Source: an uncultured Gammaproteobacteria bacterium (GTDB lineage Bacteria > Pseudomonadota > Gammaproteobacteria > Eutrophobiales > Eutrophobiaceae). From it: a DNA stretch of 64,000 bases. The position numbers and the translations under genes were made by a program. The stretch covers positions 1-64,000 of the forward strand of contig CALKEZ010000001.1 in assembly GCA_938084745.1 (NCBI GenBank), read 5' to 3'. Positions 46,752-60,451 of the stretch are shown piece after piece. Position 1 is the first letter of the stretch. Every line of letters starts with the position of its first letter. A model generated the notes under the pieces. The model was not told where the DNA came from. It worked only from the letters and a program-made list of their open reading frames with translations, and made no database searches.

Positions 46752-46766
46752 TCAATAGACCATAGC

Positions 46767-46807
46767 AAAAATCGCCGGCATGCCAGTCACATGCTGGCGA
46801 TTTTTTT
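46767..46807 (+). terminator. Rho-independent terminator after the beta-propeller gene
   Basis: Left arm AAATCGCCGGCATG and right arm CATGCTGGCGATTT form 14 base pairs with one G-U, around loop CCAGTCA, followed by a run of T. On the opposite strand the wobble becomes an A-C mismatch, so + is the working direction. It insulates the next operon from trp-side transcription. Confidence 0.88.
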
Positions 46808-47029
46808 GCATCCGACTTAACTCCGCCGAAATTATTTTTTTGGGATTGATAATAAATGTTAGTATTTTTTAAAATTTGTACTAATATCCGCAAATAAAAT
46901 TAACTGTGTATAAACCCAATAAAAAAAGATAATCGGAACACTCGCTCACATACTGTGCCAACCTTACGCCCGGGGCTTTCTTTAGCCTCACCCCTGTGAA
47001 AAAAACAATCTACTTGTATAGCAAGTGCC

Positions 47030-47749
47030 ATGGACGTTGAACTACCGATAACTATCCTGCGTCAGCCGGATGACACGACTTGTGGTCCGACCTGTTTGCA
47101 CGCGGTCTATAATTACTATGGTGAGGATATCTCTCTGGATGAGGTTATTACTGACACGGAGACGTTGCAGGCTGGTGGTACGCTGGCAGTCTTTCTTGCC
47201 TGTGCCGCCCTGCGTCGCGGCTATAAAGCAACGATCTATACTTACAACCTTCAGGTTTTTGATCCGACCTGGTTTGCCTCGCCGGATATTGATATAGCAG
47301 AGCGCCTGATAAAACAGGCCGAAGCTAAAGAAGATAAAAAATTGCGCTTTGCAACCGAGGGCTATCTGGAGTTTCTAAGACTGGGCGGTAAGCTCCGGTA
47401 TGTTGATCTGACTACCGGACTGTTACGTAACATCATTCGACGTCGTCTGCCGATCCTCACCGGACTCAGCTCGACGTATCTTTATAAGACAAAACGAGAT
47501 ATTGATGACGAGCCTTCAGGTGATGACATCCGAGGTTACCCGGATGGGCACTTTGTTATTTTGAGTGGTTACCACCGACATGATCGAACCGTATTAATTA
47601 ATGATCCGTATGAGCCGAACCCGGTATCGGGTTCACTCACCTATGCCATCAATATTGATCGGGTGATTTGTGCCATCTTGCTAGGCGTACTCACTTATGA
47701 TGCCAACCTGTTAGTTATACAACCGGCCAATTCAAGGAAAAAGTCATGA
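47030..47749 (+). CDS. C39-like papain-fold cysteine peptidase
   Basis: 239 residues. Catalytic set looks complete: Gln12 and Cys18 in RQPDDTTCGPTCL, His174 in PDGHFVILSGY, Asp192 in VLINDPYEP. This is the Peptidase_C39-like fold without ABC or membrane domains, so not a bacteriocin exporter. Related proteins I know are encoded next to RimK-like ligases, sometimes fused to an acetyltransferase, which is absent here. No signal peptide, so cytoplasmic. Overlaps the next gene by four bases. The substrate is unknown; a small peptide made by the neighbouring ligases is my inference. Confidence 0.8.
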   Translation: MDVELPITILRQPDDTTCGPTCLHAVYNYYGEDISLDEVITDTETLQAGGTLAVFLACAALRRGYKATIYTYNLQVFDPTWFASPDIDIAERLIKQAEAKEDKKLRFATEGYLEFLRLGGKLRYVDLTTGLLRNIIRRRLPILTGLSSTYLYKTKRDIDDEPSGDDIRGYPDGHFVILSGYHRHDRTVLINDPYEPNPVSGSLTYAINIDRVICAILLGVLTYDANLLVIQPANSRKKS

Positions 47750-49218
47750 ACATACTCCTGGTCGTAAACAACCCTAACAATTGGCCACTGCAAATTCCCG
47801 GGGTCAGTGTCGTCGCGGCACGCACCTACCTGACTGATCCGGCCTACTCTGAAGGTAAAAAAACGCGCGTCTTCAATCTGTGTCGTTCCTATAGTTATCA
47901 ACGCACCGGTTATTATGTGTCACTGCTGGCCGCGGCACGCGGTCACAAACCGATGCCTGACATTAATACGATTCAGGATCTTAAATCACCCCATGTGATT
48001 CAGGCTATATCAGAAGACATGGAAGAATTGATTCAAAAAAAGCTCAGTCATTTGCAATCCAAACGCTTTACCTTGAGTATTTATTTTGGTCGAAATATAG
48101 CGAAACATTATGATAGTTTGAGTTTGCGCTTATTTAATCTGTTTCAGGCGCCCTTACTACAAGCGCGGTTTGTCAAAAGAAAGACCTGGCAACTGGAATC
48201 CATTCGCACGATAACCGTGACGGACATACCCGATAACCATCGCGACATTGTGATAGAGGCAGCTTCAAATTATTTTTCCGGCCGTAAACGTCGCGTCAAA
48301 AAAGGCACCACGACGCGATTTGATCTGGCGATATTGCATGACCCGGATGAAAAAGAACCACCGTCCAATGAAAAGGCCTTAAAAAAGTTTCAAAAAGCAG
48401 CAGAGTCTGTCGGACTGGACTGTGAACTTATTACTAAAAATGATGTGAATCGTATTGCTGAATTTGATGGCTTATTTATACGTGAAACCACGCTGGTTGA
48501 TCATCACACTTTTCGCTTTGCACAGCGTGCCGTAAATGAAGGCTTGATCGTTATGGATGATCCCAACTCGATACTTAAATGTACCAACAAGGTTTATCTG
48601 GCCGAATTAATGGCGCGGCATAATATACCCATACCCAAGACCATGATCGTGCATCGGTATAATATCGATCAGATAGAGAAAACCCTGGGCTTGCCCTGCA
48701 TCTTGAAAAAACCAGACAGCGCATTTTCGATGGGCGTCTCCAAGGCGGAAAATCGGGAGGAATTAATCTCGACCGTAAAAACCCTGCTTGAAGATTCGGA
48801 CCTTGTCATAGCGCAACAATTCCTGCCTACAAATTTTGACTGGCGTATCGGTATTTGTGATCGTAGGCCGTTATATGCCTGTCGTTACCATATGGCAGAT
48901 GAGCATTGGCAAATAATCAAACGTGATGCACTGGGTAATTCTACCGGTGAGGGTACTGCCGATACGATGGCGATTGGTGAAGCACCGGATGATGTAGTGA
49001 ACATCGCGCTTAAGGCAGCAAACCTGATAGGTGATAGTCTTTACGGCGTAGATTTAAAACAGGTTGGTCAAAAATTCTACCTGATTGAAATTAACGATAA
49101 TCCAAACATTGATAGTGGTTGTGAAGATCTGGTTCTGAAGGATGCGCTCTACCGGGAAATCATGGGGGTGTTTATCAAACGCATAGAAGCTCGCAAACTC
49201 GGCTTATATGGACGCTAA
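47746..49218 (+). CDS. RimK-like ATP-grasp ligase with N-terminal RLAN domain
   Basis: 490 residues. N-terminal domain (about 1-180) of the type seen ahead of RimK-like ATP-grasps (RLAN), opening MNILLVVNNPNNWPLQIPGV. ATP-grasp domain (about 275-485): NKVYLAELMARHNIPIPKTM, lysines in CILKKPDSAFSMGVSK, DWRIGICDRRPLYACR, and the metal-binding EINDNPNID at 448-456. RimK relatives ligate glutamate or other amino acids by acyl phosphate. It is longer than RimK itself (about 300), and no ribosomal S6 gene is near. Overlaps the neighbours on both sides (4 and 11 bases). Confidence 0.88.
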   Translation: MNILLVVNNPNNWPLQIPGVSVVAARTYLTDPAYSEGKKTRVFNLCRSYSYQRTGYYVSLLAAARGHKPMPDINTIQDLKSPHVIQAISEDMEELIQKKLSHLQSKRFTLSIYFGRNIAKHYDSLSLRLFNLFQAPLLQARFVKRKTWQLESIRTITVTDIPDNHRDIVIEAASNYFSGRKRRVKKGTTTRFDLAILHDPDEKEPPSNEKALKKFQKAAESVGLDCELITKNDVNRIAEFDGLFIRETTLVDHHTFRFAQRAVNEGLIVMDDPNSILKCTNKVYLAELMARHNIPIPKTMIVHRYNIDQIEKTLGLPCILKKPDSAFSMGVSKAENREELISTVKTLLEDSDLVIAQQFLPTNFDWRIGICDRRPLYACRYHMADEHWQIIKRDALGNSTGEGTADTMAIGEAPDDVVNIALKAANLIGDSLYGVDLKQVGQKFYLIEINDNPNIDSGCEDLVLKDALYREIMGVFIKRIEARKLGLYGR

Positions 49219-50464
49219 AATGCCAAAACCACTCTCAATTTTTTCTGCCTATGGCATAGAAATCGAATACATGATTGTTGATCGAAAGCATATGAATGTA
49301 ATGCCGATCACCGATAAAGTGCTGCACCATGTTGCTGGTGAATATCGCAATGAAGTAGATCAGGGTGAAATCGCCTGGTCAAATGAATTGGTTTTGCATG
49401 TTATTGAAACAAAAACCAATGGTCCGGCTAAATCTTTGTTACAGGTACCGGAACATTTTTTAAAAAATATAAAACAGATACAAACGATACTCGATGAGAT
49501 GGGCGCGCGCTTGATGCCAACGGCCATGCATCCGTGGATGAATCCGTTTAAAGAAACGCGATTATGGCCACATGATTCCAAAGAGATCTACGACACCTAT
49601 AACGGCATTTTCAACTGCCAGGGACACGGTTGGTCAAACTTGCAAAGTATGCACATCAACTTGCCGTTTGCGAACGATAAAGAGTTTGCCTTACTGCATA
49701 GTGCGATACGTACCCTATTGCCCATATTGCCTGCTTTGTCGGCGAGCTCGCCGATAGTGGAAGGTTCGTCTACCGGAATAATGGATACCCGGCTCGAGGC
49801 TTACCGTCAAAATTCAAAAATAATTCCGTCTATTACCGGACTGGTTGTACCTGAAGCAGTGATCAGTGAAAAAGAATATCAACGCTTAATTCTGAAACCG
49901 ATGTACAAGGCGATTGCACCATTTGATAAAGACAAGATATTACAGGATGAATGGTTAAATTCACGTGGTGCGATAGCTCGCTTTGATCGAAATGCGATAG
50001 AGATACGTGTATTAGACACACAGGAAACACCTGCCGTTGATCTGGCCATAGCCAGTTTTATCATTCAGGTATTAAAAAAACTCTCGGATAAAAGCTGGTC
50101 CAATGTCATAGAACAAAATACACATGAGACCGCAGCCTTAGCACAAATACTGGATAAGGTAATAGTCGATGCTGATCAGGCCGTGATAGATGATCGTGAC
50201 TACCTGCAATTGTTCTCGTTCCCGGACAAGAAATGCAGTACTCAGGAATTATGGCAATACTGCCGCGAGTCAGTCGATCTGAATACAGGCGAATTTGCGG
50301 CATCAACCACATCAATAATTGATTTCATTTTGAAAGAAGGCCCCTTGGCCAGACGTATATTGAATGCCACTGGCAATAGTGTTAAAAAATCCAGGCTACA
50401 CGAAACCTATCGTGTGTTGTGTGACGCACTGCTTGAAGGAGAACCTTTTGTTGGCATCGATTAA
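49208..50464 (+). CDS. GCS2-family carboxylate-amine ligase (glutamate-cysteine ligase-like)
   Basis: 418 residues. GCS2/YbdK pattern: GIEIEYMIVDRKHMNVMPI at the start (metal-binding Glu pair), SNELVLHVIETKTNGP near 60, AMHPW near 107, QSMHINLPF near 143, and the NSRGAIARFDRNAIEIRVLDTQETP segment near 265. Family members join the gamma-carboxyl of glutamate to an amine. Cysteine as substrate is not assured. The ATG at 49208 lies in the ligase gene end; a second ATG at 49220 is possible. Confidence 0.85.
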   Translation: MDAKMPKPLSIFSAYGIEIEYMIVDRKHMNVMPITDKVLHHVAGEYRNEVDQGEIAWSNELVLHVIETKTNGPAKSLLQVPEHFLKNIKQIQTILDEMGARLMPTAMHPWMNPFKETRLWPHDSKEIYDTYNGIFNCQGHGWSNLQSMHINLPFANDKEFALLHSAIRTLLPILPALSASSPIVEGSSTGIMDTRLEAYRQNSKIIPSITGLVVPEAVISEKEYQRLILKPMYKAIAPFDKDKILQDEWLNSRGAIARFDRNAIEIRVLDTQETPAVDLAIASFIIQVLKKLSDKSWSNVIEQNTHETAALAQILDKVIVDADQAVIDDRDYLQLFSFPDKKCSTQELWQYCRESVDLNTGEFAASTTSIIDFILKEGPLARRILNATGNSVKKSRLHETYRVLCDALLEGEPFVGID

Positions 50465-51156
50465 TGAATCTGATTGTTAGCTGTGAACATGGCGGGAACA
50501 AAATTCCAAAACGCTATCTGCCACTATTTAAAAATAACCTATCACTATTAAACAGTCATCGTGGCTGGGATCCAGGGGCATTGATACTGGCAAAAAAAAT
50601 AGCGCTCGATTTATCAGCACCGTTATTTTATTCAACCACATCCCGCTTATTAATTGATCTGAATCGATCATTACACCATCCCGGACTATTTTCAGAATTC
50701 AGTAAACGTGCCGATGACACTATCCGGCAGAAAATAATTAACAGTATTTATATTCCCTATCGAACCGGGATAGTGGAACATATAAAAAAAATTAAATCAG
50801 CAACAAACCCGATATTGCATCTGTCGATACATTCCTTTACCAATAAACTGGAAGGTATCGAACGTACTGCTGATATTGGACTGCTCTATGATCCGTCAAA
50901 GCTGTCCGAAAAGAATTTTTGCAGAAAATTAAAAACATCGCTCGAACAGGCTTTTCCGGACCTCATTATCAGATGCAACTATCCCTATCGGGGTAATGCT
51001 GACGGCTTTACAACATACCTGCGACGCCGTTTTAATGAACGTGACTATGCCGGCATCGAGATTGAGATCAATCAAAAACATGTTGTTAGTGATAATGTGG
51101 TCTGGTCTGAAATTAAAAAGAAACTTGGCAATTTAATATTAAATAACGTCAAATAA
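50464..51156 (+). CDS. N-formylglutamate amidohydrolase family protein
   Basis: 230 residues. FGase pattern: IVSCEHGGNKIPKRYLPLF at the start, SHRGWDPGALILAKKIA, LLIDLNRSLHHPGLFSEF, HLSIHSFTNK (metal-type histidines), ADIGLLYD, and the GIEIEINQKHV block. The family removes a formyl or acyl group from glutamate amides with a metal ion. No histidine-degradation genes are near, so an N-formylglutamate role is unlikely. Starts on the last base of the previous gene. Confidence 0.83.
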   Translation: MNLIVSCEHGGNKIPKRYLPLFKNNLSLLNSHRGWDPGALILAKKIALDLSAPLFYSTTSRLLIDLNRSLHHPGLFSEFSKRADDTIRQKIINSIYIPYRTGIVEHIKKIKSATNPILHLSIHSFTNKLEGIERTADIGLLYDPSKLSEKNFCRKLKTSLEQAFPDLIIRCNYPYRGNADGFTTYLRRRFNERDYAGIEIEINQKHVVSDNVVWSEIKKKLGNLILNNVK

Positions 51157-51194
51157 GCGATAAGCAAATTTTAATTTACAGGTAAGAGCAGCTA

Positions 51195-52259
51195 ATGTTG
51201 AATCACGACTTCATAGATTTACTTAAAGCCATCATACGGCAACCCAGTGTCGTCGGCGCAGAACATTCATTCTTTAGAGTCTTGCAGCGTGAGCTTGAAG
51301 AACGCGGCGCAAAAGTAACCTGGTATGAGGGCTTATTGGTTGCGCAAGGTAGTGACCCGTTTAGTGCTATGTTTTCGGCACATATCGATCGTCATGGCCT
51401 TATCTGCACTGGACCGAATGAATTTCAGTTTGCTGCGTTTATCTCTGCGAACAGAACAGACCTGTTAAACAATTCGGTTTCAGAAGAATTAATGAGCAAG
51501 GTAACAGAACGTTTTCAATCCGAACCTGTTTTCGCTTACGAACCATGGTCAGGTGCCTACCGCGGTAATGGCATTATTAAAAAATCTTATGTCTGCGAGA
51601 ACAGGAACAACCTGATATTCGAACTCGAGGGTCTGGGTGATGTTGTTGCAGGCACACCGATCGCCTTTAAAGATAAGCTCAAGATCAATAATAATCGACT
51701 CGAGGGTCAGCTCGACAATGTGTTAAGTGCCGCTGTGTTAGTACATTTATTCAGTCTTGGTTTTAAAGGCACTGCATTTTTTACAGCACAAGAGGAGGCA
51801 GGAAAAAGTTGGCGTTATTTACTGGAGTGGTTCCGTCGTTTCGGTGGCTCAACTAACCGACTGTTCGTTGTCGACACCAGTCCGTTTCCAGACATTGCCA
51901 CAGCCAATGAACAACTGCTCGTGTTAAGAGAAAAGGATGCCAATGCCCCCTTTAATAAAGAGGCAACGGCACACATTGAAAAACTCTGTCGAAATAATGA
52001 TCTCAGTTATTTATATAAAGACCGCTATGTAGAAGCCGACAATGCCCGCTTGCAAAGCCAGGGCGAAAAGCCACGTTCATTGGGCAGTACCGAAATGGGC
52101 AGAATAATTGCAGCATCGAATGGCCTGGTAGACGGCACCACAATTCAGATCCCGACGACGGGTTATCACACCATGGAAGAATCTGCCGCTATCGAATCAG
52201 TCGAAGCATTTATAGACATTCTAACGTTATTAGCTAATGACGTTGCCTATTCAACGTAA
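51195..52259 (+). CDS. M42-like dinuclear metallopeptidase
   Basis: 354 residues. The metal ligands of the M42/M20 fold are all present: His63 and Asp65 in SAHIDRHG, bridging Asp174 in EGQLDN, catalytic Glu200 and Glu201 in TAQEEAG, Asp227 in VVDTSP, His325 in TTGYHTMEE. Likely an aminopeptidase acting on short peptides. A relative occurs with N-acetylglutaminylglutamine amide genes elsewhere, but those partners are absent here. 38 bases after the previous gene; last of five. Confidence 0.83.
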   Translation: MLNHDFIDLLKAIIRQPSVVGAEHSFFRVLQRELEERGAKVTWYEGLLVAQGSDPFSAMFSAHIDRHGLICTGPNEFQFAAFISANRTDLLNNSVSEELMSKVTERFQSEPVFAYEPWSGAYRGNGIIKKSYVCENRNNLIFELEGLGDVVAGTPIAFKDKLKINNNRLEGQLDNVLSAAVLVHLFSLGFKGTAFFTAQEEAGKSWRYLLEWFRRFGGSTNRLFVVDTSPFPDIATANEQLLVLREKDANAPFNKEATAHIEKLCRNNDLSYLYKDRYVEADNARLQSQGEKPRSLGSTEMGRIIAASNGLVDGTTIQIPTTGYHTMEESAAIESVEAFIDILTLLANDVAYST

Positions 52260-52321
52260 AGCGCTATCTGAATTTTATTCATTTAAATCCTGACTTCCCA
52301 AATAACAGAGTGATAGACAGA

Positions 52322-54205
52322 TCAATTTATTTGCTGCCCGTAAGATTTAAAGTCGCGCGGATCGATCAGGTATTTCTTGAGTCGCGACATCACCGTTGTT
52401 GGTTTCATATCCAGTAACTCGGCAGCACCACCTTCACCAAAAACTTTTCCCTGGCATTGATCAAGTGCAACCAGTAAATTGCGTCGGTCTCTGTCTTTAA
52501 TTTCCGAGTCTGTAAGGACTGTTTTATCATTTAAAATTTGCCGAGGAACGTTTTCATTATTAATAGAAACGAGTTCATTAAAACGTATGCTATTACCCTG
52601 GGCAAGAATGACCTGTCGCTCTATTACATTTTCCAGTTCGCGAATATTACCGGGCCAATGATAGCTTTTAAGTTTTTCCAGTTCACTTAAGGAAATTTTA
52701 AGACCTGTTTTTTTTGCCCGTATAACAGCGCGCTGAATAAAGTGCTGTGTCAATAATGGAATATCCTCCGGTCGATTGCGTAGCGGAACCGACTCAATCG
52801 GGAACACGTTCAATCTAAAATATAAATCTTCGCGAAAATGTCCCTGCTCTACCTGTTTTTTTAATTTACGATTCGTTGCGGCGATGATCCGTACATCAAC
52901 ATTTCGGGTTTTTGATTCACCCACTCGTTCAAACTGCTGTTCCTGTAACACGCGCAGTAATTTTCCCTGAAGATGAAGCGGAATCTCACCAACTTCATCC
53001 AGAAACAAGGTGCCGCCATCGGCTAATTCAAATCGACCCGGACGATCTGATGTTGCACCGGTAAACGCTCCCTTTGCATGACCAAAGAATTCGCTTTCAA
53101 AAAGATCTTCCGGTATGGCTGCACAGTTCACCCGAATTAAAGATCGTTGAGATCGTTCACTCATCTCATGTATAGCACGCGCTATTAATTCCTTACCTGT
53201 ACCAGACTCACCATTTATCAATACAGTGGCATCGGTAGGTGCAACCAGATTGATTTGCTGCACAATATTCTGGATAGCAGGACTCTTGCCTATTATTTGA
53301 TGGTGATTAAATTCAGAATTGATTTCTTCTTGCAGATAAGCATTTTCCATTTCCAGTCTGTTTTTCAGGTTTTGTACTTCGATCAACGCTTCCAGTAATC
53401 GTTTCTTGTCGGTCTTTTTTTGTGATACGTCATGAAAAATAACAACTGCACCTACAATAAAACCGTTGTCACGAATCGGCGTGCTGGTGTATTCAACATC
53501 AACGGGCTTGCCTGATTTCGACCAGAAAACATCTTCCTCAACGGTATGTACTGTCCCATCCCGAAAAGCCTCAAAGATCGGACATTGCTCAATCCCGAAA
53601 TGAGAGCCATTCACACGACTATGATGGATCATGCTATGCATATTTCGCCCGGCCAGCTCTGCGGCACTAAAACCCAGGATGCGCTCAGCGGCGGGATTGA
53701 CAAAAGTAGTGATGCCTTTTTCATCAACGCCGTAAATTCCTTCACCAACCGCATCAAGTATCAGTTGGTTTTCTCTTTCGAATTCCTGGAAGACCCGACT
53801 GACCCGGTTCCAATGACCAATACCGGAAAGATAATGTCGCTGCGCATCGGACAACTCGCGTAACTGATCCAGTTCATCTGCCAATTGCAGGCTCAAATGA
53901 AGCTGTAACTGATCACTGCTTTCAAAACTGCGACCTGTTACTTCCATGCGTAGTTCGCCTTTATTACAGGTAAGTAATAAATGGTCTGACCAGGCCCGGC
54001 CCTGATCGATGACTTCTTCGGTAAAGACCACCATCGCCGGGAAACTGGGCGAGAATAAATGACTGGCACGTTGTGATTCAATTTCTTCAACACTCATTCC
54101 CAGTAAACGACAGATTTCCTGATTAGCACCGATAATCTTGTCTGATATTGGTTCAACGACTAACTGGGGAGTAGCTGAATAATAAAAAAAACTGTCATTG
54201 ATCAT
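52322..54205 (-). CDS. PAS-domain sigma-54 activator (NtrC family, no receiver domain)
   Basis: 627 residues from ATG 54205 (a TTG 15 bases upstream is in frame). Two PAS-like domains (about 8-105 and 145-263; the second has [29 protein letters not shown]), then AAA+ core with Walker A GESGTGKE (about 332), GAFTGA at about 379-384, Walker [13 protein letters not shown], and a Fis-type helix-turn-helix near 575-613 ([20 protein letters not shown]). With no phospho-receiver it should sense a ligand or redox state through PAS. Divergent from the cyanate operon, which has a sigma-54 promoter, so it is the likely activator. Confidence 0.9.
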
Positions 54206-54299
54206 ATTTATTGGACTCAAAATAAAGGACGTAATACCAACGTTTTAGTAACGCTGTTTTGATATAGTTAGTAACTCTATCTCAACATCTATGCCAACT

Positions 54300-54350
54300 A
54301 CGAAATCTCGTTTTATTCACTATGAAATATCGTGTATTACGAACTCTCGT
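54300..54350. promoter_or_regulatory. Three-copy upstream activator sites for the cyanate operon
   Basis: ACGAAATCTCGT (54300-54311), ATGAAATATCGT (54322-54333) and ACGAACTCTCGT (54339-54350) share RYGA-N4-TCGT, a palindrome with a variable centre. Centres are about 140, 118 and 101 bases upstream of the predicted start, the usual enhancer distance for a sigma-54 activator. The site nearest the promoter and the farthest are exact palindromes in the arms. Confidence 0.55.
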
Positions 54351-54417
54351 AGTGATTTTTTATCTTACATAATCCTTTATATCCCTTTATATTCAACTAG
54401 TTAAAGAATTTCTCAGG

Positions 54418-54436
54418 CTTGGCCCCCCACTTGCAA
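54418..54436 (+). promoter_or_regulatory. Sigma-54 promoter of the cyanate operon
   Basis: CTTGGCC at -24 (GG 54421-54422) and ACTTGCAA at -12 (GC 54433-54434), exactly ten bases between GG and GC. TTGCA is a perfect -12 element; the -24 is TGGCCC rather than TGGCAC. Transcription should begin near 54446, about 115 bases before the first gene. Confidence 0.75.
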
Positions 54437-54561
54437 TAGCCCTTACAGTGTGTGTGTTAACTGCGAGTCAAAACTTGCAAGTGATGCACCTTAATCACTT
54501 TGTTTTGTACAACGTGCACCGTAAAGACGCATTACGATATCAACTTTAGAGGTAAGTGAAT

Positions 54562-56031
54562 ATGACCAATAAAAGTCTAGGCGACCCCTTTGACGCAAAT
54601 AGCAAGTTGACACATTCGACCTCATGTCGATGTGAGACTTGTAAGGCCGAGCAATCCAGTCCCAATGGATTGAGCGATAGTGAACGACAGCAATTAATGG
54701 AACGGCAAGCCGAAGCTTCCGAAATTCATGCTTCCGGAAGTGAAAGAGGCGATACACCCGAATTTGAGAGCAGCGATGATATGCTTGACCGCGCCGTAGA
54801 GAGCGCCATCGTTCGTGGCATGTTTGGTCATAACGACGCCAGTCGTCGTAACTTTATCAAACTCGTTGGCGGTGGCACACTGGCAACCGTGCTCGGCAGT
54901 ATTCTGCCTATGGATAAGGTAAAGGCCGCAGTTAAAGATTCATTCGGTCCTCTTGAAAAAACCAAATTAAAAGTAGGTTTTGTCCCGATCACTTGCGCCA
55001 CACCAATCATCATGGCTCAACCTATGGGCTTTTATGCCAAGTATGGCCTTGATGTCGATGTCATAAAAACAGCCGGTTGGGCTGTCGCTCGAGACAAATC
55101 ACTGAATGGCGAATACGACGCATCACATATGCTGACGCCGATGCCATTAGCAATGAGTATGGGTGCCGGTTCTACATCGACGCCTTATATCATGCCTGCA
55201 GTTGAAAATATTAACGGTCAGGCGATCGTTCTGCACAATAAACATAAAGATAAACGTGATCCTAAACAGTGGAAAGGCTTTAAGTTTGGCGTGCCGTTTG
55301 ATTACTCCATGCATAACTTTTTATTACGTTACTATGTTGCTGAACATGGTATCGATCCCGATCAGGATATTCAGATAAGAGTAGTACCACCACCAGAGAT
55401 GGTAGCTAATCTACGCGCCGGCAACCTGGATGGTTACCTGTCTCCAGACCCATTCAACCAACGTGCCGTCTATGAAAAAATTGGTTTTCTACACATTCTG
55501 ACGAAAGATATCTGGGAAGGGCATCCTTGTTGCGCATTCGCTTGTAGTGAGAAATTTGCGAAAGAAATGCCAAATACCTATGCCGCACTGTTTAAATCGA
55601 TCGTTGATGCAACACACTTCTCGGCTAAAGCAGAAAATCGTGCCGAAATTGCCAAAGCCATCTCACCTAAGAATTACCTCAATCAACCGGAGGTAGTGGT
55701 CAGACAGGTTTTGACCGGGCGTTATGTCGACGGTCTTGAAGAGAAAGTATTCGATGTGCCTGATCGAATCGACTTTGATCCGTTCCCATGGCATTCAATG
55801 GCCGTCTGGATTCTGACACAGATGAAACGCTGGGGTTATGTTGAAGGTGATATTGACTACACCGGCATTGCCGAGCGCGTCTATGTTGCTGCAGAAACCG
55901 GCAAGGTCATGAAAGAACTGGGCTATACACCGCCGGATAAAACTTACCAGAACTACACCATCATGGGTAAAACATTTGATTACACCAAGCCGGAAGAATA
56001 CATCAATAGTTTTGCGATTAAACGAGGCTAG
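54562..56031 (+). CDS. cynA: Cyanate/nitrate-type ABC transporter substrate-binding protein
   Basis: 489 residues, NrtA/CynA family periplasmic binding protein. A long N-terminal lead of about 93 residues with CRCETC (22, 24, 27) precedes the Tat-type signal SRRNFIKLVGGGTLATVLGS (Arg 95-96), an unusual layout. Mature domain LKVGFVPITCATPIIMAQPMGFYAKYGLDV with later HPCCAFACSEKF is typical of the family. ATG 54562 is nine bases after AGAGG; a GTG six bases upstream is less well placed. Cyanase downstream points to cyanate as substrate, though nitrate or related anions cannot be ruled out. Confidence 0.88.
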   Translation: MTNKSLGDPFDANSKLTHSTSCRCETCKAEQSSPNGLSDSERQQLMERQAEASEIHASGSERGDTPEFESSDDMLDRAVESAIVRGMFGHNDASRRNFIKLVGGGTLATVLGSILPMDKVKAAVKDSFGPLEKTKLKVGFVPITCATPIIMAQPMGFYAKYGLDVDVIKTAGWAVARDKSLNGEYDASHMLTPMPLAMSMGAGSTSTPYIMPAVENINGQAIVLHNKHKDKRDPKQWKGFKFGVPFDYSMHNFLLRYYVAEHGIDPDQDIQIRVVPPPEMVANLRAGNLDGYLSPDPFNQRAVYEKIGFLHILTKDIWEGHPCCAFACSEKFAKEMPNTYAALFKSIVDATHFSAKAENRAEIAKAISPKNYLNQPEVVVRQVLTGRYVDGLEEKVFDVPDRIDFDPFPWHSMAVWILTQMKRWGYVEGDIDYTGIAERVYVAAETGKVMKELGYTPPDKTYQNYTIMGKTFDYTKPEEYINSFAIKRG

Positions 56032-56036
56032 CGATA

Positions 56037-56861
56037 ATGTCACTTAACTTTCGTGCCGGTGTCTTATCGCTGGTAATACTGTTCCTCTTGCTTGGAATTT
56101 GGGAAGCGCTTAATCAGCCGCCAGATGCGTCAAAAGCGCTTTCCGAATTCGAACTTTTGATGGGTGGCTCGGATCAAGAAGCACGTGTTCCACCACCCTC
56201 GTCAGTGCTAAAACATGCTTATGATGAATTGAGTAATCCTTTTTATGATGCCGGACCGAACGATAAGGGTATTGGTATTCAAATCGCCTATTCGATTTAT
56301 CGCGTTTTGTTAGGTTATTTCGCTGCTGCACTGATAGCGATCCCGTTAGGGTTTGTAATCGGGATGTCACCGTTGATGTATCGGGCGTTGAATCCTTTTA
56401 TACAGGTGCTAAGGCCGATATCGCCGCTGGCATGGATGCCACTGGCACTGTTTATCATTAAGGACTCGGAACAATCAGCCATCTTTGTTATTTTCATTTG
56501 CTCTATCTGGCCGATGCTGATCAATACCGCATTTGGTGTGGCGAGTGTCCGCACAGACTGGGTTCGCGTTGCGCAGACACATGAGTTAAGTCAATTAAAA
56601 ACTGCGTTTCAAGTAATTCTGCCCGCTGCTGCGCCAACAATTTTAACCGGTATGCGCATCTCTATCGGTATTGCCTGGTTAGTTATCGTTGCAGCTGAAA
56701 TGCTGGTGGGCGGAACCGGCATCGGTTACTACGTCTGGAACGAGTGGAATAACCTTGATTTAAACAGCGTTATTTTTTCCATCTTGATGATCGGTGTTGT
56801 TGGCATGATATTGGATTTTGCTCTGGGCACAGTCGCAAAAATTGTGCAGTACGAGGAGTAA
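56037..56861 (+). CDS. cynB: Cyanate/nitrate-type ABC transporter permease
   Basis: 274 residues, NrtB/TauC-like permease. Six hydrophobic spans. The EAA-loop type signature is near 170-200 (RTDWVRVAQTHELSQLKTAFQVILPAAAPTILTGMRI in parts), with PLAWMPLALFIIKDSEQSAIF before it and GTGIGYYVWNEWNNLDL after. Five bases after cynA and directly followed by the ATPase. Confidence 0.9.
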   Translation: MSLNFRAGVLSLVILFLLLGIWEALNQPPDASKALSEFELLMGGSDQEARVPPPSSVLKHAYDELSNPFYDAGPNDKGIGIQIAYSIYRVLLGYFAAALIAIPLGFVIGMSPLMYRALNPFIQVLRPISPLAWMPLALFIIKDSEQSAIFVIFICSIWPMLINTAFGVASVRTDWVRVAQTHELSQLKTAFQVILPAAAPTILTGMRISIGIAWLVIVAAEMLVGGTGIGYYVWNEWNNLDLNSVIFSILMIGVVGMILDFALGTVAKIVQYEE

Positions 56862-56865
56862 AAAA

Positions 56866-57774
56866 ATGAGTAAGTATTTTCTAAGTATGGAAGGATTGAC
56901 AAAAATCTTTCCCAGTAAAGAAGAAGACATGGTGGTATTTGAAAATATCAATATCGGTCTGAACAAGGGTGAATTCGTCTGCATCATTGGTCATTCGGGT
57001 TGCGGCAAATCCACCATCATGAATGTTCTGGCGGGACTCGATAGTCCTACTAGTGGCAGTGTCATTATGGATGGCCATGAAGTTTCCGGTCCGAGTCTGG
57101 ATCGAGGCGTGGTATTTCAAAACTATAGCCTGTTGCCGTGGCTAACGGCAATGCAGAATGTCTCATTTGGTGTTAAGGCGCGTTGTCCTGACTGGACCAG
57201 GGAACAGGTGATCGCACACAGTCGAAAATACCTGGAAATGGTCGGACTGGAAGAATCATTGAATAAAAAACCGGCACAATTATCGGGTGGCATGCGACAG
57301 CGCGTGAGCATTGCACGTGCCTTCGCTACCAACCCGAAGTTATTGTTACTGGATGAACCGTTTGGCGCATTGGACGCGTTGACCCGCGGAATTATTCAGG
57401 ACGAGCTGATAAAAATCTGGGGTGAAACACAACAAACTGTTTTCATGATCACGCACGACGTCGATGAAGCTATTTTACTGGCTGATCGCGTGCTGCTAAT
57501 GACTAACGGCCCAAAGGCACGCGTTGCAGAATCGGTGCTGATCAATTTACCCAGACCACGTAAACGCGATACGGTTATTGATGATCCGAATTACTACAAG
57601 ATTCGTAATCATCTGGTTCATTTTCTGGTGAAACGTTCTGAAGAACTATCCGGATCTGTAAGTGATGAAGACGGTGGCACCATCGTCATCGACCCGACTA
57701 AAGACACCAGCACCAAAGTTGAAAATACTGGTGAACAAGACACCAATCCACAATATGAGCGCGTCGCTCTTTAA
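56866..57774 (+). CDS. cynD: Cyanate/nitrate-type ABC transporter ATPase
   Basis: 302 residues. Walker A GHSGCGKST (42-50), Q-loop VVFQNYSLLPWLTAMQNV, signature LSGGMRQRVSIARAFA, Walker B LLLLDEPFGALDALTR, H-loop MITHDVDEAI. NrtD/CynD type without the extra C-terminal binding domain of NrtC, but with an acidic tail of about 45 residues. The ATG at 56866 follows GAGGAG; an upstream in-frame start lies in cynB. Confidence 0.93.
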   Translation: MSKYFLSMEGLTKIFPSKEEDMVVFENINIGLNKGEFVCIIGHSGCGKSTIMNVLAGLDSPTSGSVIMDGHEVSGPSLDRGVVFQNYSLLPWLTAMQNVSFGVKARCPDWTREQVIAHSRKYLEMVGLEESLNKKPAQLSGGMRQRVSIARAFATNPKLLLLDEPFGALDALTRGIIQDELIKIWGETQQTVFMITHDVDEAILLADRVLLMTNGPKARVAESVLINLPRPRKRDTVIDDPNYYKIRNHLVHFLVKRSEELSGSVSDEDGGTIVIDPTKDTSTKVENTGEQDTNPQYERVAL

Positions 57775-57798
57775 ATATATATCTATCAGGAGAATAAA

Positions 57799-58239
57799 AT
57801 GGATAAAGTAACCATGACAGAAAAAATCATGAATGCAAAAACTAGTAAAGGGGCTAGCTGGGAAACGGCCGGTAAAACACTCGGTATGTCGCCAGTGTGG
57901 CTAACTTCGGCTTGTCTGGGAATGAACAGCGCACCTGAAGAAAAAGCAAAAGCGATTGCTGATTACTTTGGTTTGGGGCCGGATGTTGTCGATGCGCTCG
58001 TTGCCTTCCCCACCAAGATATGGGATCAAGCCGTTCCAACCGATCCGCTGATTTATCGTTTGTACGAGGTAGTCGGTGTATATGGTGAAACACTAAAAGA
58101 AGTTATTCAGGAAAAATTTGGTGACGGCATTATGAGTGCAATCGATTTTTCCATGGAAGTGGACAAGATAGAAGATCCTAAAGGTGATCGTGTTTTGCTT
58201 ACCTTAAATGGCAAGTTTCTTCCTTATAAATCCTGGTAA
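57799..58239 (+). CDS. cynS: Cyanate hydratase (cyanase)
   Basis: 146 residues. Converts cyanate and bicarbonate to ammonia and two CO2. Catalytic Arg87, Glu90 and Ser113 sit in PTDPLIYRLYEVVGVYG and FGDGIMSAIDF, nine lower than the E. coli numbers. Ends with LNGKFLPYKSW, close to the family end. Good AGGAG Shine-Dalgarno. The product, ammonia, explains the sigma-54-type control, since nitrogen scavenging is often under that factor. Confidence 0.97.
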   Translation: MDKVTMTEKIMNAKTSKGASWETAGKTLGMSPVWLTSACLGMNSAPEEKAKAIADYFGLGPDVVDALVAFPTKIWDQAVPTDPLIYRLYEVVGVYGETLKEVIQEKFGDGIMSAIDFSMEVDKIEDPKGDRVLLTLNGKFLPYKSW

Positions 58240-58259
58240 TTTAGATTCAGCCTTTAGCA

Positions 58260-58733
58260 ATGACTGACAAGCAACGCCCACCGCTGCCACCGTTTGATTA
58301 TGATAGTGCAACTATCAAGGTACGTAAGGCAGAAGATGCATGGAACACAAGGAATCCGGATGCCATTGCACTCGCTTACAGTGTTGATTCCGTCTGGCGC
58401 AATCGTGCAGAGTTCCTGCAGGGCCGCGATCAAATAGTCGCGTTCTTAAACCGAAAATGGATGCGTGAACTCGACTATCGTTTAATCAAGGAAATATGGG
58501 CACATGATAAAAATCGGATTGCTGTTCGTTTTGCCTACGAATGGCATGATGATTTAAACAACTGGTATCGATCCTATGGTAATGAAAACTGGGAGTTCGA
58601 TGAAAGCGGTCTGATGAAAAAACGTATTGCCAGTATTAACGATGTGACCATTGATGAATCGGAGCGGAAGTTTCATTGGCCCAGTGGACCGCGTCCAGAA
58701 GATTATCCGAGCCTGTCTGAACTGGGTCTTTAA
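58260..58733 (+). CDS. DUF1348 NTF2-like protein in the cyanate operon
   Basis: 157 residues. DUF1348 pattern: [47 protein letters not shown], then the [30 protein letters not shown] strand set with a polar pocket, and the closing [15 protein letters not shown]. SnoaL/NTF2-like fold; enzyme or binding role unknown. 20 bases after cynS, so the last gene of the operon by position. Confidence 0.82.
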
Positions 58734-58757
58734 TACAATCCGGATTTTTCAGCTGGT

Positions 58758-58904
58758 TTATTGATTGACCGTTTCCTGCCAGCGCTGCAATGCCCTTTCG
58801 TAATAAACAAAAATACAATTTTCACAGCCACGGTTGCAACACTCTGCTGCATCTGGCCTGACCGGTTTTGTCGGATGTTGTTTTGACGTCTCTTGCTTAT
58901 TCAT
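58758..58904 (-). CDS. 48-residue Cys-rich oxidoreductase-like mini-protein
   Basis: Translated by hand from the ATG at 58904; too short for a usual gene caller. Residues 22-30 read CCNRGCENC, giving Cys22, 23, 27 and 30, followed by IFVYYERALQRWQ. The CC-x3-C-x2-C followed by a V-Y-E segment resembles the N-terminal Oxidored-like domain (PF09791), a probable metal-binding motif. N-terminus is polar with Pro and Lys. Convergent with the DUF1348 gene and 19 bases upstream of nothing but the VOC gene's end. Real coding is supported by the motif only. Confidence 0.6.
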   Translation of the reverse strand: MNKQETSKQHPTKPVRPDAAECCNRGCENCIFVYYERALQRWQETVNQ

Positions 58905-58922
58905 TTTGAAAACTGAAGTTGA

Positions 58923-59342
58923 TTAACCTGTTGCGAATAACTGTGCACGGTCTTTAAACGATTTAAACTCAAGTGCATTGGCACTAGCATCAGAAATAAA
59001 GAACGTCGCTTGTTCGCCTGGCTCGCCTTTAAAGCGGATGGTTGGCTTAATTAAATAATTGATCGGTTGTTTATCCAGTCGCTCGACAAGTTGATGCCAA
59101 ACATCCCATTCCAGTACCAGACCGAAATGTCTGACCGGTACTGCCTCACCATCAACCGGGTTCGTTTCAGCTTTATCTAAGGCTTCCGGTTTGACATGTG
59201 CGGAAAGTTGATGGCCGAAGAAATTAAAATCAATCCAGTGTTCAGCCTCACGACCAACCGTACAACCGATTATGTTCGAATAAAACTCACGCGTTGTTTT
59301 TATATCCCTGACCGGTATGGCAAGATGAAACGGGGAAAGCAA
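58923..59342 (-). CDS. VOC/glyoxalase family protein
   Basis: 139 residues. PFHLAIPVRDIKTTREFYSNIIGCTVGREAEHWIDFNFFGHQLSAH is the first beta-alpha-beta-beta-beta half, with His6; the second half has VRHFGLVLEWDVW and ISDASANALEFKSF, supplying a His and a Glu for a metal site. Members open rings or isomerise; which is not clear. Between ychF and the mini-protein gene on the minus strand. Confidence 0.85.
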   Translation of the reverse strand: MLSPFHLAIPVRDIKTTREFYSNIIGCTVGREAEHWIDFNFFGHQLSAHVKPEALDKAETNPVDGEAVPVRHFGLVLEWDVWHQLVERLDKQPINYLIKPTIRFKGEPGEQATFFISDASANALEFKSFKDRAQLFATG

Positions 59343-59359
59343 AGTCGCAACGCCAGCCG

Positions 59360-60451
59360 TTATACATTAAACCTGAAGAGAATAACGTCACCGTCCTTAA
59401 CGATGTATTCCTTGCCTTCTGAACGCCATTTTCCAGCATCCTTCGCGCCTTGCTCACCCTTATACTGAATGTAGTCAGCAAAAGCCGTGACTTCTGCCCG
59501 GATAAAGCCTCGTTCAAAATCAGTATGGATAACACCGGCTGCTTTTGGAGCAGTCGAACCGACCGGAATAGTCCAGGCACGCACTTCTTTTTCACCAGCA
59601 GTAAAATAATTCTGTAACCCAAGTAACTCGTAACCCGCACGAATAATACGATTTAAGCCTGGCTCTTCCATGCCCAACGCATCCAGAAACTCCTGTTTTT
59701 CATCCTCGTCCAGTTGCGATACTTCAGCTTCTATCGACGCACAGACAGGAATCAATTGGGCATTTTCATTTTCGATCAAGCCCTGGATTTTTTCTAACCA
59801 GGGATTGGAATCAAGACCGTCTTCTTCAACATTGGCAATATATAAAGTCGGCTTCTGGGTCAGCAAGTGCAGATTATAAATCAAGGCGAGATCATCTTCT
59901 GACAATGACATGGAACGTACAGGCAAGCCCTGATCCAGATGCGCCATTACGGCCTCAAGGCGTTCCTGTTCCAGCTTGGCTGATTTATCACCACTGCGGG
60001 TTAACTTCGCTGCTTTTTGTAGCGCCTTGGTGACGGTTTCTTGATCAGCAAGACAAAGTTCAGTATTGATAACTTCTATATCCGAAATTGGATCAACCTT
60101 ACCCGCAACATGCACAATATTATCATCGTCGAAACAACGTACCACCTGAGCAACGGCATGTGTCTCTCGAATATTGGCCAGAAATTTATTGCCCAGACCT
60201 TCACCTTTCGATGCACCTTCAACGAGGCCGGCAATATCAACAAACTCCATATGCGCCGGCACTATACGCTGCGGTTTGACGATCTCGGCCAGTTGTTGCA
60301 TACGCTTATCAGGGACCGCGACAACGCCAACATGGGGGTCGATGGTACAGAAAGGATAATTCTCTGCGTCTATCGCTGAGTTGGTTAACGCATTAAAAAG
60401 CGTCGATTTACCGACATTTGGTAAACCAACAATGCCACATTTAAATCCCAT
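59360..60451 (-). CDS. ychF: Ribosome-binding ATPase YchF
   Basis: 363 residues, Obg-family P-loop protein that prefers ATP. G1 [15 protein letters not shown] near residue 8, [41 protein letters not shown], a coiled-coil arm near 130-200, and the C-terminal TGS-like domain [36 protein letters not shown] (in parts). 18 bases after pth, as in many gammaproteobacteria. Confidence 0.97.

Follow-up and report, generated by a model that had tools for sequence, protein, structure and literature searches.

What does a bacterium make, or take apart, with five tightly packed genes that encode two ligases and three hydrolases? The question is raised by positions 47030-52259 of the window, the 64,000-nucleotide stretch of DNA from an uncultured gammaproteobacterium that was analyzed here, in which five complete open reading frames (ORFs) follow one another on the + strand:

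46765..46809, + strand: terminator-like hairpin and T-run (stem 46781-46799, tail ATTTTTTT), lying between the trpDC/NHL genes upstream and the operon
47030..47749, + strand: core gene 1, C39-like (papain-fold) cysteine hydrolase, 239 aa (Pfam Peptidase_C39_2, E 3e-11)
47746..49218, + strand: core gene 2, RLAN + RimK-like ATP-grasp ligase, 490 aa (Pfam RLAN 1.8e-49, RimK 2.5e-11)
49208..50464, + strand: core gene 3, GCS2-family carboxylate-amine (predicted gamma-glutamyl) ligase, 418 aa (Pfam GCS2 4.3e-27)
50464..51156, + strand: core gene 4, FGase-like zinc amidohydrolase, 230 aa (Pfam FGase, PF05013, 3.5e-24)
51195..52259, + strand: optional accessory gene, M42-like metallopeptidase, 354 aa (weak PF05343)

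When the ORFs were re-checked, the positions and spacing given in the original prediction were reproduced exactly: successive genes overlap by 4, 11 and 1 bases, and the last gene begins after a gap of 38 bases. This spacing suggests that all five are co-transcribed. The strong terminator that had been proposed upstream corresponds to a stable terminator-like hairpin, which with its T-run folds at -25.8 kcal/mol, far below shuffled versions (z = -6.1; 0 of 200 equally stable). No terminator-like element was found between the M42 gene and the convergent sigma-54 regulator gene, and a promoter scan returned nothing exceeding shuffled sequence.

Pfam agreed with the families originally assigned to all five proteins, although the M42 protein only just passed for PF05343 (24.8 bits; cut-off 23.2), and the catalytic or metal-binding residues, which had been described as intact, were invariant within the homologues of each family. 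The C39-like protein is a single domain with no attached transporter, and its catalytic residues C18, H174 and D192 were conserved in all 18 homologues. Its AF2 model (pLDDT 83) best matched C39 peptidase domains (PCAT1, ComA and 3erv) and also, more weakly and lower in the list, the glutathione-cleaving phytochelatin synthase Alr0975. The product of the second gene belongs to the RLAN-RimK family (PF14401, 167.7 bits, cut-off 25; PF08443, 44 bits, cut-off 21), has RimK and LysX as its closest solved relatives, and retains the ATP-grasp residues K282, K321, E448, N450 and N452 in all 17 sequences. For the GCS2 protein (PF04107, 95.7 bits, cut-off 21), the AF2 model (pLDDT 89) adopts a GCS fold (1r8g, 1tt4, 2gwc) and matches YbdK, plant glutamate-cysteine ligase (GCL) and the GCS part of GshF, with PafA and Dop ranking lower in the fold-match list; E18, E20, E60, H64, E67, H108, H140, E265 and R267 were invariant in 18 homologues. 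The FGase-like protein has 2odf (Atu2144) as its nearest solved structure (E 8.8e-35), and residues E8, H9, D36, H119, H123, E199 and E201 were invariant in 16. It was rejected as the N-formylglutamate deformylase HutG, scoring 15.7 bits against a cut-off of 278.75 for TIGR02017. In the M42 protein, the likely metal ligands H63, D65, D174, E200/E201, D227 and H325 were invariant in 5 homologues.

The surroundings of RLAN-RimK genes were surveyed by taking the flanks of about 130 loci, 129 of which had a usable ligase gene, and by scanning all ORFs with profiles for the window's five proteins and for a GNAT-C39 protein encoded beside other RLAN genes. RLAN was present in 15 of 58 relatives, 72 of 398 genomes of a phylum sample, and 81 of 369 gamma-proteobacterial genomes, so that about a fifth of the latter carry an RLAN-RimK protein annotated merely as 'RimK family'. 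Nearly all loci were of two types. We define type A as C39, RLAN-RimK, GCS2 and FGase genes in that order, on one strand and tightly spaced, as in the window cassette. With its stand-alone C39-like gene, it accounts for 27 of the 129 loci, the window included; these come from 14 gamma-proteobacterial families, their genes overlap or are separated by short junctions, and none was seen outside Gammaproteobacteria in the phylum-wide set. Incomplete type A loci are mostly explained by contig ends, the genuine exceptions being L099, with RLAN-RimK and GCS2 only and neither C39 nor FGase, and G151, whose GCS2 gene lies on a separate contig. Legionella adelaidensis also carries the cassette, annotated as 'RimK family protein', 'glutamate-cysteine ligase family protein' and 'N-formylglutamate amidohydrolase' in a record that starts at the match, the C39 position being outside it.

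Type B (97 of 129 loci) pairs RLAN-RimK with a GNAT domain, which is fused to a C39-like DUF3335 domain (PF11814) in 79 loci and stands alone in 18. The ligase family is the same as in the window, a C39-like domain is usual, an AstE/AspA-like zinc hydrolase (DUF2817) is sometimes present, and the M42 family of the window appears twice. On the other hand, GNAT replaces GCS2, FGase gives way to DUF2817 or has no amidohydrolase counterpart, and the ligases fall on the opposite side of the tree: among 80 RLAN-RimK proteins, all 26 of type A were separated from all of type B by a branch with full SH-aLRT support. The two types are mutually exclusive, as no locus carried both the GCS2-type and the GNAT-type set. 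Five loci were of neither type, three of them close to contig ends.

Could such a neighborhood consist of unrelated housekeeping genes that happen to be adjacent? Flanking genes do vary among loci, and the M42 gene occurs in one type A locus only. For the first four genes, however, this explanation is refuted by conserved order and co-occurrence, and its probability overall is close to negligible. The order is kept in 27 loci, about 24 neighbors were observed in 81 loci where about 0.2 would be expected by chance, and 26 of 27 type A genomes had a type-A GCS2 gene, versus 0 of 23 comparison genomes (p about 2e-13, GCS2 being part of what defines type A). The four type A families also show correlated pairwise distances (r 0.58-0.89; 0 of 2000 permutations as high), as expected if the four genes are inherited together, although species relatedness also contributes. 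The original prediction that five families co-occur was therefore correct for the first four genes, far above chance, and failed for M42, which only 1 of 27 type A loci contains and which is thereby ruled out as a core gene. What is conserved as a unit is core genes 1-4, not all five, and within it the proposed linkage of ligases with hydrolases of glutamyl or amide bonds holds across type A loci.

The M42 gene is a rare and optional companion that is nonetheless linked to RLAN. Close, full-length homologues (64-69% identical) were found in 5 of 369 genomes of the class, and 4 of these 5 also carry RLAN (hypergeometric p 0.009 without correction for kinship). The gene adjoins RLAN-RimK in the window and in two distant genomes, both with type B loci: L178, where it is directly downstream on the same strand, and L166, where it is on the opposite strand. 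Its chemistry presumably fits the products of types A and B alike.

The domain families involved are already catalogued; ATP-grasp amidoligase neighborhoods as a general class were reportedly treated by Iyer et al. in 2009, and RLAN neighborhoods are probably listed there. In the literature collection that was searched, no papers on the RLAN domain or on the C39/RLAN-RimK/GCS2/FGase cassette were found. We therefore regard the window operon as a variant of a known but uncharacterized kind.

The strongest functional clue is the exchange of GNAT for GCS2 around the RLAN ATP-grasp ligase, which is the constant element of the two types. Each of the exchanged enzymes would cap an amine, and either one usually comes with a C39-like hydrolase. 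The exchange suggests that a small capped peptide is made and recycled. The reading we favor, with a probability of roughly 0.45, is that the four-gene cassette is a self-contained cytoplasmic system for making and turning over a small non-ribosomal glutamyl peptide; its reactions, their order and the small-molecule nature of the substrate are what we infer. GCS2 would first phosphorylate the side-chain carboxylate of glutamate and couple it to an amine X, giving gamma-Glu-X. The RLAN ATP-grasp enzyme would then activate a free carboxylate of gamma-Glu-X and attach a second residue, most likely glutamate, and the C39-like hydrolase and the FGase-like zinc amidohydrolase, together with the M42 protein in the window strain, would re-cut these bonds so that the compound is recycled. 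With the GNAT acetyltransferase of type B in GCS2's place, the cap would be acetyl rather than gamma-glutamyl. The compound may act as a solute or a reserve, and the occurrence of the cassette in L. adelaidensis, which comes from cooling-tower water, does not favor a salt-specific role. More tentative, and in our estimate somewhat doubtful, is the idea that type A defines an as yet uncharacterized class of gamma-glutamyl-capped non-ribosomal peptide, built by a GCS2 and RLAN ATP-grasp pair and recycled by dedicated hydrolases, with GCS2 replacing the acetylating GNAT of the more widespread type B. The GCS2-versus-GNAT split provides a concrete, testable idea of what the RLAN-RimK family does, namely cap and extend a small peptide.

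Several observations favor the peptide reading. The set of two ligases and hydrolases is kept as a block in 27 loci, with correlated distances and with types A and B excluding each other. Among the matches of the GCS2 model (YbdK, GCL and GshF), GshF is a known pairing of GCS with ATP-grasp whose product is a tripeptide, and RimK and LysX, to which the RLAN enzyme is related, attach amino acids to carboxylates. In the flanking-gene survey of RLAN loci, no transporter was conserved beside the cassette, and no short precursor or carrier-like ORF was conserved in the cassette or its immediate flanks. Bacteriocin or RiPP processing was ruled out, as there was no exporter, and neither a short ORF nor other DNA was conserved within 300 bases upstream or 400 downstream except among near relatives; the window C39 protein, single-domain and with no conserved exporter adjoining, is likewise unlike the C39 leader peptidases of ABC exporters, which are fused to or lie next to the exporter and have a double-Gly precursor. 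The exceptions L099 and G151 count against the peptide reading, and the 18 type B loci with GNAT and without C39 indicate that C39 can be dispensed with.

Of the pathways already worked out, the one closest to this capped-peptide logic makes the osmoprotectant NAGGN. Its operon consists of asnO, ngg and an M42 gene (PA3459-PA3461 in P. aeruginosa), and in Ngg a GNAT and an ATP-grasp domain are fused. A comparable fusion was found in one type B locus (L148:6062-8041), where GNAT and RLAN-RimK form a single 659-residue protein, and its resemblance to Ngg is a further point in favor of a peptide product. Ngg N-acetylates one glutamine and joins the acetylated glutamine to a second glutamine (PMC8070244). 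The likeness thus lies in an N-capped non-ribosomal peptide, in the ATP-grasp and GNAT pair of type B, and in the M42-type peptidase; the window, by contrast, has no asparagine synthase-like gene, and its cap would be gamma-glutamyl. Identity with the NAGGN system itself was ruled out, as the window proteins gave no match to the NCBIfam models TIGR03103 (ligase) and TIGR03106 (M42 peptidase). Also in line with the capped-peptide interpretation is a published classification, according to which DUF3335 often occurs in fusion with GNAT domains that might serve as peptide ligases or acetylases (PMC10318531).

The main rival, by analogy with RimK and LysX relatives that act on proteins, is a reversible protein modification, in which the RLAN ligase would place glutamates, or a dipeptide made by GCS2, on a protein tail or side chain, and the C39, FGase and M42 enzymes would erase them. 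A writer with erasers fits the gene set, the closest characterized relative is RimK, and LysX, another relative, acts on a carrier protein. The GCS2 fold is shared with PafA and Dop, which are protein modifiers, and their place in the fold-match list, like the ability of RimK-type enzymes to modify proteins, counts against the peptide reading. A parallel is RimK/RimB on ribosomal protein S6; RimB takes off the glutamates that RimK adds (PMC12239564). Both that system and the window combine an ATP-grasp glutamate-ligase relative with a hydrolase partner, but the window ligase has an RLAN domain and GCS2, FGase and C39 partners, and no retropepsin. Similarly, rloABC of Pseudomonas encodes an ATP-grasp protein alongside a peptidase but differs in having a secreted retropepsin and a membrane transglutaminase-like partner and no GCS2 or FGase (PMC12239564). 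Against protein modification, the GCS2 enzymes closest in fold (YbdK and GCL) use small molecules, no carrier-like ORF is conserved at the cassette, and a canonical S6-type RimK is encoded outside the operon in the same genome (E 3e-69). We consider this alternative unlikely. The separate RimK rules out the operon product as the S6 ligase, and the RLAN ligase's score of 24.8 bits against the equivalog model of E. coli-type RimK (NF007764, cut-off 331) points the same way. Exclusive action on S6, which would have overturned the original prediction, is accordingly unlikely.

A glutathione-like thiol was a second possibility, and a redox thiol had been among the products originally suggested. Here GCS2 would make gamma-Glu-Cys or an analogue, the ATP-grasp enzyme would complete the thiol peptide, and the C39 protein would process it in the manner of phytochelatin synthase. 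A GCS-type ligase with an ATP-grasp ligase is indeed the logic of GshA/GshB and of GshF, and the C39 model does match glutathione-cleaving Alr0975, albeit less well than ordinary C39 peptidases. However, sequence similarity to these systems is remote, the operon adds hydrolases, and the genome has its own GshA (PF08886, E 1.6e-185; contig C39, position 8098) and GshB (PF02955, E 5e-75; contig C12, position 20569). PF08886 is also present in most type A genomes. Because of these dedicated enzymes, the operon was ruled out as a glutathione pathway or alternative GshA, glutathione synthesis by it is unlikely, and a related thiol is quite improbable. The automatic names given to genes of RLAN cassettes, which are neither ribosomal S6 ligases nor glutathione genes, are therefore misleading.

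Three hydrolases against two ligases would be odd in a purely biosynthetic operon, and this too counts against the peptide reading. It could instead be explained by a mainly degradative or salvage role, in which the hydrolases would degrade acylated or gamma-glutamyl peptides obtained by uptake or from the cell wall, with the ligases serving in conjugation or detoxification. Some type B loci encode a DUF2817 protein with a weak resemblance to the murein tripeptide amidase MpaA and to AstE/AspA, and no biosynthetic regulator is conserved adjoining the cassette. Yet no catabolic gene or transporter is conserved there either, and what types A and B have in common is the RLAN ligase, not a hydrolase. 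We give this explanation little chance.

Several loci showed further variation. In eight type B loci (L103, L129, L136, L138, L141, L142, L146 and L147), DUF2817 and DUF155 (RMND1-like) both adjoin RLAN-RimK; how DUF155 would contribute to making a peptide is not obvious. On the P. aeruginosa plasmid pZYPA1927 (L189), RLAN-RimK lies near a gamma-glutamyltransferase, a glutamate/aspartate ABC transporter and pagP, with no annotated GNAT or C39 partner nearby. Two contigs titled as a Klebsiella pneumoniae MAG (L009 and L010; the titles are probably wrong) carry members of the gene family that are 72% identical to the window. One of the proteins most enriched in biofilms of Pseudoalteromonas tunicata is EAR30706, a RimK family alpha-L-glutamate ligase (PMC12153261).

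Nine genomes of the same genus and one other have trpC, usually with the NHL gene, and lack all five operon genes; in three of these, the NHL gene and the block that starts at 59360 in the window lie only about 220-380 bases apart. The stretch absent from the nine same-genus genomes lies between the trpC-NHL genes and this block (46752-59359) and comprises the operon, the sigma-54 regulator and a cyanate-type ABC transporter/cyanate lyase cluster. Because other species have different inserts at the same site, it looks like an insertion hotspot. Adjoining the sigma-54 activator gene, consecutive genes for a substrate-binding protein, a permease, an ATPase and cyanate lyase (54556-58236) probably form a cluster for uptake and use of cyanate or nitrate/cyanate.
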